Both the position numbers and the translations under genes were made by a program. This document shows positions 17,968-51,515 of a stretch of 64,000 nt of DNA, piece by piece (within the stretch, counting starts at the first letter, position 1; each line of letters opens with the position of its first letter). This DNA is from Thioalbus denitrificans. Lineage in GTDB: Bacteria; Pseudomonadota; Gammaproteobacteria; DSM-26407. The stretch covers positions 1-64,000 of the forward strand of contig NZ_QPJY01000012.1 of NCBI RefSeq assembly GCF_003337735.1, written 5' to 3'. The notes beneath the pieces are model-generated. The model had not been told where the DNA came from. It searched no databases and was given only the letters and a program-made list of their open reading frames with translations.

Positions 17968-18469
17968 CCCGCGCCGGGCATCCGCCACGCAGGACGCTAA
18001 GACATTTTACTGGACAGGATTTACAGGATTTACAGGATTTACAGATTAAAGCTCCCGGTCCAGTGTCGGTCTCCGGGAAGGGACGGGGCATGGGCAGGAC
18101 GCGCTTACCGGAATGGGTGCAATCCAAATCCTGTTCATCCTGTGAATCCTGTCTATTCGAAAGTGTCAGCATACTTCCTCCGCATCCGATGGCTTCCTGC
18201 TGGCGTCCCGGGCCGGAATCCCCTCCGGCCGCGGTGGCCCATATCCACCCGTCCGACTCCCCGACGGGGGATTTCCACCGCCTCACTCCCTCCTGAAAGA
18301 ATTACAACGCCCGCGATTTCAATGACTTGACATGATGGCCCGGATGTTGCCCCGGTCAGGGCGTGAATCCGGTCCGTCCCCCGGCAACCCGCCGGCAGGG
18401 GCTCCGGGCGCTCCCATCGCGGCGCCGATTCCCCGGAACCGGGCCGCGCGCAACCGCGGAGGACATGTC
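17968..18469. other. 502-bp gene-free stretch containing an inverted repeat pair
   Basis: No protein-like frame is seen. The left half carries the acaggattt repeats described separately; the right half (18170-18469) is ordinary GC-rich DNA ending in the GGAGGA ribosome-binding site of the YfdX-like gene. A TTGACA at 18327-18332 has no acceptable -10 partner. Confidence 0.6.
18012..18157. repeat. Inverted pair of 9-mer repeats, family acaggattt
   Basis: Left arm 18012-18047 holds three perfect tandem ACAGGATTT units and a partial fourth. Right arm 18124-18157 holds the reverse-complement family (aatcctgttcatcctgtgaatcctgtct), more diverged. About 75 bp of unrelated GC-rich sequence separates them. 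The same family recurs at 37171-37200. The A+T content is strikingly unlike that of the surrounding DNA. Confidence 0.85.
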
Positions 18470-36273: not shown

Positions 36274-36320
36274 CGGATCGGGAAAATCAAATCGCGGAAT
36301 ATAACGACAAGACCATTTTT

Positions 36321-36530
36321 TATCCGCAGATTACGCAGATTACGCAGATGGTTTAAAAAACTGTAGCAACCGGAGCGCCTGGCTGGGGTGTCGGTTATTT
36401 CCCGTAGAGATGTGGTTCGTGTGAAAGATCGGGGATTCGGCTTGGCGCAGCTCAATTAAAATATCTGCGTAATCTGCGTAATCTGCGTAATCTGCGTAAT
36501 CTGCGTAATCTGCGTAATCTGCGGATAATA
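36321..36530. repeat. Inverted pair of 9-mer arrays, family atctgcgta
   Basis: Left arm 36321-36351 begins TATCCGCAGATTACGCAG and holds three units; right arm 36463-36530 holds seven tandem TCTGCG-containing 9-mers and ends GCGGATAATA. The arms are reverse complements around about 110 bp of ordinary DNA. It lies between the convergent serB and acpH genes and could act as a very large RNA hairpin on both strands. Confidence 0.92.
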
Positions 36531-36542
36531 CACAAAGCCTCT

Positions 36543-37142
36543 TCACCCCCGGGCCTCCACCTGCCATGCCCGGACCTGTGCCTGCAGCTCCGGGAAGAAG
36601 GCCTCGAAATCCGCCTCCAGGGCACCATAGTGTCGCGCCACTTCCGCCTCCGCCCCCACCAGCAGCTCCGGGCGACGCAGGCGCCGGGACATGCGCGTGA
36701 AGGTGACGCCGAGGCCGTCGCGGTCGCCGTAGCAGCCGAGCCAGTTCTCGCCGATGAGCCGGGGCAGGTGGCGGGAGAGCCGTTCCGGCAGCAGCGCCCG
36801 GTTCTCCTCCAGCAGCCGGTAGAAAGCGGCGATGAACGCCTCCCGCGCCTCCCCCACATGCTGGTCCCAGCGGCGCGTGAGGACGTGGTCGTAGCCCACG
36901 TCCACGATCACCCCCGCCAGCCGCCGGTGGCGCGGGTGGATGCGGGCGCAGCTGGCGCGATGGCGCGGATGGGCGTCGGTCCAGGCGTCGATGCGCCGGT
37001 GCAGGGCGATGCCGGCGAGCACCGCCGCGGGGTAGCGCCCGCGCAGTCCCGCCAGGGTGCCGGTGACGAAGTCGCCGAGGAAATTCCCGAGCTGCGCCTC
37101 CGGGTCCGGCCCGGCCAGCACCACGTGGGCGAGATAGTTCAT
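36543..37142 (-). CDS. acpH: Acyl carrier protein phosphodiesterase
   Basis: A 199-residue AcpH-family protein that removes the phosphopantetheine arm from holo-ACP. MNYLAHVVLAG, GNFLGDFVTG, GIALHRRIDAWTD and VDVGYDHVLTRRW carry the metal-binding His/Asp residues of this HD-like fold. Its 3' end is followed within a dozen bases by the 9-mer repeat array. Confidence 0.9.
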   Translation of the reverse strand: MNYLAHVVLAGPDPEAQLGNFLGDFVTGTLAGLRGRYPAAVLAGIALHRRIDAWTDAHPRHRASCARIHPRHRRLAGVIVDVGYDHVLTRRWDQHVGEAREAFIAAFYRLLEENRALLPERLSRHLPRLIGENWLGCYGDRDGLGVTFTRMSRRLRRPELLVGAEAEVARHYGALEADFEAFFPELQAQVRAWQVEARG

Positions 37143-37170
37143 GGACCTGGTTTGTTCAGAATTATTAATA

Positions 37171-37430
37171 GACAGGATTTACAGGATTGACGGGATTCAA
37201 AGACAAAGACTCTTTAGCCGCAGATTACACAGATTACGCAGATTGTTGATGCAGGGAGCCGACCGATGTACCGGTGAATGGCTCGTTTCCACCAGAGTGG
37301 ATCCACATCACGGCTCCAGCACCGTTGCTGCAACCGGCGCTTGGGCTGCATTCAGCAGAGGCTGGATTCCAAATCCGCGTAATCGGCGCAATCTGCGGAT
37401 AAAAGGTATTTGTTCTTCAATCCTGCCATT
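37171..37430. repeat. Nested inverted repeats of two families
   Basis: From left: gacaggatttacaggattga (37171-37190, same family as 18012), then the cgcagattac family (37219-37245), about 125 bp of unrelated sequence, the reverse complement of the cgcagattac family (37371-37404, ending GCGGATAAAA), and finally TCAATCCTGCC (37417 onward), the reverse complement of the acaggatt family. The order A-B-spacer-B'-A' is a nested palindrome filling the gap between acpH and the hydrolase/TlpA gene. Confidence 0.82.
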
Positions 37431-51345: not shown

Positions 51346-51515
51346 CGGTCAACCACGAAGGACACGAAGAACCGTGTTCAGTGTTCAGTGTTCAGTGTTC
51401 AGTGTTCAGTGCATGATCTCCCGGTCTCCGTGGCGCAGGGTAGCTGCCGGCGGTCGCTGATCCGTGAAATCTCTTCGTGGTGGTTGCTTCGTGTCCTTCG
51501 TGCCTTCGTGGTGAA
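51346..51515. repeat. Inverted acgaagg repeats enclosing a GTGTTCA heptamer array
   Basis: Left arm 51346-51373 (ccggtcaaccacgaaggacacgaagaacc) and right arm 51472-51515 (tcttcgtggtggttgcttcg and on to ccttcgtggtgaa) are reverse complements of one family. Inside the left side lie five perfect GTGTTCA units (51374-51408). About 60 bp of unique DNA remain in the centre. The cluster fills the space between the TSUP and first CitE-like genes. Confidence 0.85.

Follow-up and report, generated by a model that had tools for sequence, protein, structure and literature searches.

The short-unit repeats on both sides of acpH, in a 64,000-nt stretch of the Thioalbus denitrificans genome (contig NZ_QPJY01000012.1, positions 1 to 64,000; hereafter the window), are members of one dispersed family of paired, inward-facing arrays. 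They are best explained as a high-copy, non-autonomous palindromic family of the REPIN or MITE kind, whose arms and spacers were reshaped by template switching and whose unit number was altered by slippage. We assign this reading a probability of about 0.5. It draws on the number and design of the elements, their position at gene ends, copies bounded by unrelated flanks, and a comparison with a sister species.

Two elements frame acpH

The original prediction that three copies of a 9-mer face seven was borne out: in element 1, three units (36325-36349, + strand, without the leading TTATC) face seven (36463-36523, - strand) across 113 bp. The outermost 30 nt of this element (TTATCCGCAGATTACGCAGATTACGCAGAT) have a perfect mirror at 36499-36528. 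With element 2 on its other side, acpH is framed by repeats as had been proposed (Table 1). Element 2 has three A units on each side within a B layer. The nested order foreseen for this locus is correct as a plan, but the B layer is intact only on the left, and its outermost right arm is worn to one unit. A small correction concerns the families: the A arms inside element 2 belong to the family seen in element 1, and the two loci therefore represent a single family, to which element 2 adds one outer layer.

Single-strand folding at the loci of elements 1 and 2 was well beyond that of shuffled sequences (z = -6.6 and -8.1, respectively). Because of this folding, and because the genome holds 349 matches to the family 16-mer against 1 for the control, the window loci are not a product of chance.

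Table 1. Genes and repeat features of the window, and sites of a separate MITE-like family
Feature	Position	Strand	Remark
serB	35056-36273		gene bordering element 1
Gap between serB and acpH (convergent genes)	36274-36542		nearly all taken up by element 1
Element 1, left A arm (TTATC and three 9-mers)	36320-36349	+
Element 1, spacer	36350-36462		single copy in own and sister genome
Element 1, right A arm (seven units, GGATAA end)	36463-36528	-
acpH (PF04336)	36543-37142	-	element 1 on one side, element 2 on the other
Gap on the 5' side of acpH and the 3' side of redoxin-domain gene	37143-37429		holds element 2
Element 2, outer B arm (GACAGGATT TACAGGATT GACGGGATT)	37171-37197	+	array GACAGGATTTACAGGATTGACGGGATT
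Element 2, B-to-A linker, A-rich	37198-37213		within continuous stem
Element 2, inner A arm (three units)	37214-37244	+
Element 2, spacer (127 bp)	37245-37371		single copy in own and sister genome
Element 2, right A arm (three units)	37372-37403	-	diverged
Element 2, outer B' remnant	37418-37430	-	one degenerate unit, CAATCCTGCCATT
Redoxin-domain gene	at 37430		borders element 2
Third window element (B arms)	18013-18153		shared plan; three units per side, 85-bp loop
Fourth window element (C arms)	51350-51513		CACGAAGGACACGAAG / CTTCGTGTCCTTCGTG
Family with ends TAGTGTACTGTTTCACTCTTGGAGG / CCTCCAAGAGTGAAACAGTACACTA	L053, 2921-3144		absent in L080
Family with ends TAGTGTACTGTTTCACTCTTGGAGG / CCTCCAAGAGTGAAACAGTACACTA	L064, 275-600		absent in L107
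Family with ends TAGTGTACTGTTTCACTCTTGGAGG / CCTCCAAGAGTGAAACAGTACACTA	L050, 12544-12811		absent in L187

Size and arm design of the family

A genome-wide search for the 9-mers, as the original prediction had recommended, revealed a dispersed family. With up to two mismatches allowed, the 16-mer CGCAGATTACGCAGAT had 178 forward and 171 reverse matches in the 4.14-Mb genome, compared with 1 and 0 for the reversed control. Our own-genome sample of 1.26 Mb, which holds 280 of the 349 matches (~80%), contained 66 inward-facing pairs (forward arm first, reverse arm second), or an estimated ~80 per genome. The sampled stretches were mostly picked around elements, so that densities are upper estimates, while counts of orientation and position are less affected. 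Across all sampled DNA there were 85 inward pairs with inner distances of mostly 100-150; the spacers were likewise mostly 100-150 bp long, typically 110-150 bp. Another 30 arms in the own sample were unpaired, several of them with a visible degenerate partner close by.

The consensus of 131 arms reads TTATC-CGCAGATT-ACGCAGATT-ACGCAGATT, with sharp conservation from TTATC through the third GATT and weaker conservation in the A-rich outer stretch. The A arm occurs alone or within longer composite arms that have a C (TTCACCACGAAGGCACGAAGGACACGAAG) or B (AATAGACAGGATTTACAGGATT) layer outside it on both sides; one or two short-period arrays (A, C+A or B+A) thus form an uninterrupted stem of 30 to ~75 bp. 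The outer layers of left and right arms usually correspond: C/C in 23 pairs, B/B in 7, none on either side in 28, and mixed in 8. At the level of single positions, left and right arms agreed at 26.6 of 31, compared with 24.7 for shuffled partners, and none of 2000 shuffles reached so high a value. Such covariation can arise from subfamily descent or from the copying of one arm onto the other.

A difference in copy number between the arms, proposed as a hallmark of these loci, applies to 20 of the 66 pairs, including the 3/7 pair of element 1, which is the extreme of the sample. The other 46 pairs have equal arms (3/3 in 32, 2/2 in 14).

Further families follow a like plan, namely A2 (TTAACCGCAGATTNACGTTGATT), D (TCTCGCCAAGACGCCAAGA) and one resembling GGATAAGGG. 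For all families together, inverted repeats with a score of at least 12 occupied 30% of the sampled gaps of at least 120 bp, against 0.6% after shuffling, in a gap sample that is partly enriched in elements and whose unselected part was 18% occupied. Facing arrays with units of 7 or 8 nt (GGATAAGGGTTAATGG, GATGGGT) are arranged in a similar way at L048 10741-10927 and at L049 10334-10550, 12313-12409 and 12840-12994. At L050 13022-13096 lies a bare, nearly loopless hairpin of the A2 type (CCGCAGATTAACGT-GAATT-AACGTCAATCTGCGG); in the sister species this site is occupied by a full-length element.

Position relative to genes

The elements are intergenic inward pairs, as had been anticipated: none of the 66 pairs in the own sample overlapped a coding sequence predicted by our own codon-based gene calls. 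Among gaps of at least 150 bp, they occupied 19 of 70 convergent, 41 of 254 co-directional and 5 of 105 divergent ones, so that 5 of the 65 placed elements fall in divergent gaps. They lie mostly downstream of stop codons, at a median distance of ~40 bp, as against ~80 bp to the start. This bias is compatible with protection of mRNA ends, one of the functions suggested earlier. Directly after the stem, however, the 131-arm consensus continues with GGATAAAA where a U-tract would be expected, and no canonical terminator was found at the stem.

Comparison with the sister species

The sister species is represented by a fragmented metagenome bin (G001; coverage 3.3), in which acpH lies on contig JAQVKR010000216.1. 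Coding flanks are ~95% identical between the two species. In 91 syntenic gaps, a sample that favoured elements, sites with a pair in our genome had a pair in the sister in 21 cases (20 when our gap measured at least 120 bp), a single arm in 4 and nothing in 3, whereas no site without an element in our genome had a pair in the sister. For three sister contigs chosen by synteny alone, the counts were 7/9 against 0/9 (p = 0.002).

The content of the shared sites is far less stable. Spacers were homologous in the same orientation at 7 sites, homologous and inverted at 3 (L080 13139, L080 18178 and L089 9569; misassembly across the inverted arms is possible), and at ~10 no more alike than shuffled sequences or only weakly similar. 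A fourth inversion, also open to misassembly, is found at L054/L097 13760 (0.93 similarity when inverted, 0.60 when direct). Inverted spacers thus make up 4 of the 11 homologous ones, in a comparison of two genomes of which one is a low-coverage bin and where short-read assembly can flip spacers. The existence of ~11 sites with homologous spacers implies that many elements are older than the species split. An aligned ortholog (L097/L054) differs by one 9-mer unit, in keeping with the expectation that copy number changes between relatives in 9-bp steps.

About half of the shared sites differ between the species in arm subtype and spacer, and at these replaced sites the arms of the sister are often of another, more worn subtype. 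Both acpH-flanking sites of the window have different content in the sister. Import of the whole region from a divergent lineage was considered and rejected, as coding flanks show the same degree of similarity at replaced sites and at sites with homologous spacers (95.2 vs 95.9%, p = 0.17).

Two other differences were seen between the species. In the sister, a small DUF1289 gene (PF06945; L072) sits beside acpH, between the orthologs of serB and acpH, and this gene is not present at the window locus. Moreover, sites of a separate MITE-like family are occupied in one species and empty in the other (Table 1).

Spacers and element boundaries

The spacers are mostly unrelated between elements, which largely confirms what had been proposed: all 15 queried spacers, including those of elements 1 and 2, occur only once in the two genomes combined. 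Six of them were searched for donors in phage or plasmid collections, with no match. The spacers were also considered as structured RNA, a candidate we rejected given that they fold like control intergenic DNA (z = -0.71 vs -0.75); no Rfam match was obtained at E values up to 1.

Some elements do have related spacers (L059/L066, L093/L103, and pairs within L082, L089 and L057). In these copies the similarity starts at TTCACCACG or AATAGACAGG and stops at CGTGGTGAA or CCTGTCTATT, and the flanks are unrelated. A unit bounded in this way must have been copied or moved. Identity between related copies is 0.82-1.00 in the arms and 0.68-0.92 in the spacers, and hence the arms evolve at a lower rate. 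Many related copies are separated by 1-5 kb (L089 8699/9571, L082 9319/12559, L080 13141/18180, L057 595/2712), and several are inverted, which suggests local spread.

Candidate sources of mobility

Our genome contains seven Y1_Tnp (RAYT-like) genes (L113-L119). No A, B, C or D arms were found at any of them, in flanks that extended up to 350 bp outward from the middle open frame, and an origin from a RAYT/REP system was rejected on this ground. Several of these genes adjoin repeats of their own, such as GTAGGATGGGCAAAGCGCAGCGTGCCCATC, GGCTGGAAGCCGCTCCTAC and GTCGGTGACAAATGC. A search of the Y1_Tnp family yielded no transposase with the element ends. Target-site duplications were not detected either, the best signal having a z of 2.7 against permuted pairs among many offsets and lengths. 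The sole long A-arm pair, at L047 10965-12319, was evaluated as an autonomous copy and dismissed, as other elements lie within it, together with a reading frame of 277 aa that is no obvious transposase.

Origin and persistence of the elements

A mobile hairpin shaped by slippage was among the origins first proposed, and it gains support from the bounded copies with unrelated flanks and from the 9-bp unit steps. The element would consist of an arm, a spacer of ~120 nt and the inverted arm, and some enzyme other than the resident RAYTs would move it, or would have moved it in the past. Template switching at inverted repeats has been described to homogenise arms and to invert spacers (PMC8604942). 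If it acted between the inverted arms during replication, it would keep the arms alike and flip the spacer, while slippage would fix the unit number and could have produced the three and seven units of element 1. Persistence at gene ends may reflect that a long hairpin is harmless there, or mildly useful at the mRNA 3' end or as a bidirectional barrier. Simple copy-and-paste would not yield spacers that are single copy across both genomes, as each of the 15 queried ones is. A further point against a mobile element is that the two species share element sites far beyond the expectation for independent insertion. Fixed gene-end sites might keep a hairpin while arms and spacer are repeatedly swapped for an unrelated element of untraceable donor, but we consider this doubtful. 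To our knowledge, such element-for-element replacement at fixed chromosomal sites has not been described for REPs or MITEs.

The main rival to a mobile palindromic family is that the elements are functional 3'-end hairpins, in which selection maintains a stem that blocks transcription from both directions or protects mRNA 3' ends, with no constraint on the loop. A 3'-end role would explain the retention of sites between the species. The strong bias towards convergent and downstream positions and the strong folding fit this idea as well. It is less easily reconciled with the missing U-tract and terminator, the five elements in divergent gaps and spacers no more structured than other intergenic DNA, and it leaves unexplained why one arm sequence recurs at ~80 sites and in another phylum. 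We regard it as possible, though on the unlikely side. Separate colonisation of the two species at shared hot spots, with gene ends as the only safe or preferred targets, would account for the differing arm subtypes and spacers at about half of the shared sites, and element-like inverted repeats (score of at least 12) do fill 57% of those convergent gaps that measure 120 bp or more. Such colonisation nevertheless predicts gaps in which the sister has a pair while our genome has no element at all, and none of this kind was found, and it conflicts with the elements that predate the split; we think it quite unlikely.

The arms might instead be crossover sites of a recombination cassette, through which an entire spacer is traded for that of another element or for imported DNA. 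Such a cassette would produce conserved arms that enclose unrelated spacers between unchanged coding flanks, as well as the inversions between arms. Yet none of the 15 queried spacers has a donor in either genome, the six searched lack a phage or plasmid match, and at several sites the arms changed subtype too, which makes a cassette improbable. Least credible of all are binding arrays in which the tandem 9-mers serve as candidate sites for a nucleoid or partition protein. Their fixed inverted tandem arrangement and fairly fixed distance would suit a protein, but the unrelated units A, B, C and D all follow one plan, unit number varies, and one element is a nearly loopless bare hairpin.

Among these explanations we retain the mobile palindromic family. 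At orthologous sites, the arms, the spacer, its orientation and the unit number can each be scored on their own, so that slippage, template switching, insertion and replacement become open to separate tests. This makes the family a clean natural test system for the long-standing question of how small palindromic repeats of bacteria originate, proliferate and come to be rewritten.

Occurrence beyond this species

Of 398 genomes sampled from the phylum, 2 contained the exact A 17-mer and 10 the C 16-mer. Outside the phylum, two plasmids of Gemmatirosa kalamazoonensis (Gemmatimonadota) carry A arms, for the most part in compact inward hairpins whose loops are short, and a C-like arm occurs on plasmids of Anabaena and Nostoc azollae. 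Exact A arms were also found on two IMG/VR contigs (L183 796 and L184 11980 on one contig, L185 4700 on the other), as one short-loop pair and otherwise as single arms. The class is therefore either old or able to move between phyla, and loops of ~120 bp may be particular to this lineage. Text searches with the arm sequences gave no relevant paper in a literature to which most subscription papers do not belong, and concept searches of the same literature returned only REP, REPIN and template-switch papers. The near identity of 30-nt arms in a second phylum suggests that the repeat class is widespread, and it apparently has no name so far.

Comparison with known systems

REPINs are inverted REP doublets that form hairpins and have a less conserved spacer (Bertels and Rainey 2011, PMC3116915). 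The pairing itself, which the original prediction had taken as a mark against REP-type elements, therefore does not separate the two; the real differences are that the arm consists of tandem units, that it has no GTAG/CGTC tag and that no link to RAYT genes was seen. Our elements resemble REPINs in their inverted pairs of short repeats, variable spacer, high copy number, extragenic position and stem formation. However, their arm is a 9-nt tandem array that is not itself palindromic, their spacers are mostly single copy, some arms are composites with a second array outside, and no RAYT gene is linked to them. REPs of the GTAG and CGTC superfamilies lie downstream of genes or between convergent or unidirectional genes, often as opposed pairs, in several phyla (PMC3733652). 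Placement at gene ends, opposed pairs and a spread over several phyla are shared with our family, whereas the tag is absent here and the unit is not a palindrome of 20-40 bp. We do not classify the family as REP or REPIN because tag and RAYT link were both looked for and neither was found.

Like MITEs, the elements are non-coding, 100-400 bp long, have terminal inverted repeats and form units bounded by unrelated flanks. They differ in that no parent transposon was found in the search of Y1_Tnp genes and most copies do not share an interior, and since our search revealed no target-site duplications, we do not regard them as classical MITEs. The heptameric TAACTGA intergenic repeats of Beggiatoaceae, short tandem repeats of the STRR type (PMC4679880), are similarly many-copy intergenic arrays of short units; our arrays differ in being facing inverted pairs with a spacer. 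The closest parallel in process comes from template-switched inverted repeats (PMC8604942), which likewise have homogenised arms and inverted spacers, the latter possibly assembly errors in our case. That work, however, concerns a mutational process in coding sequences of yeast, where the spacers are just a few bases long, whereas here the same signature would be carried by a repeat family.
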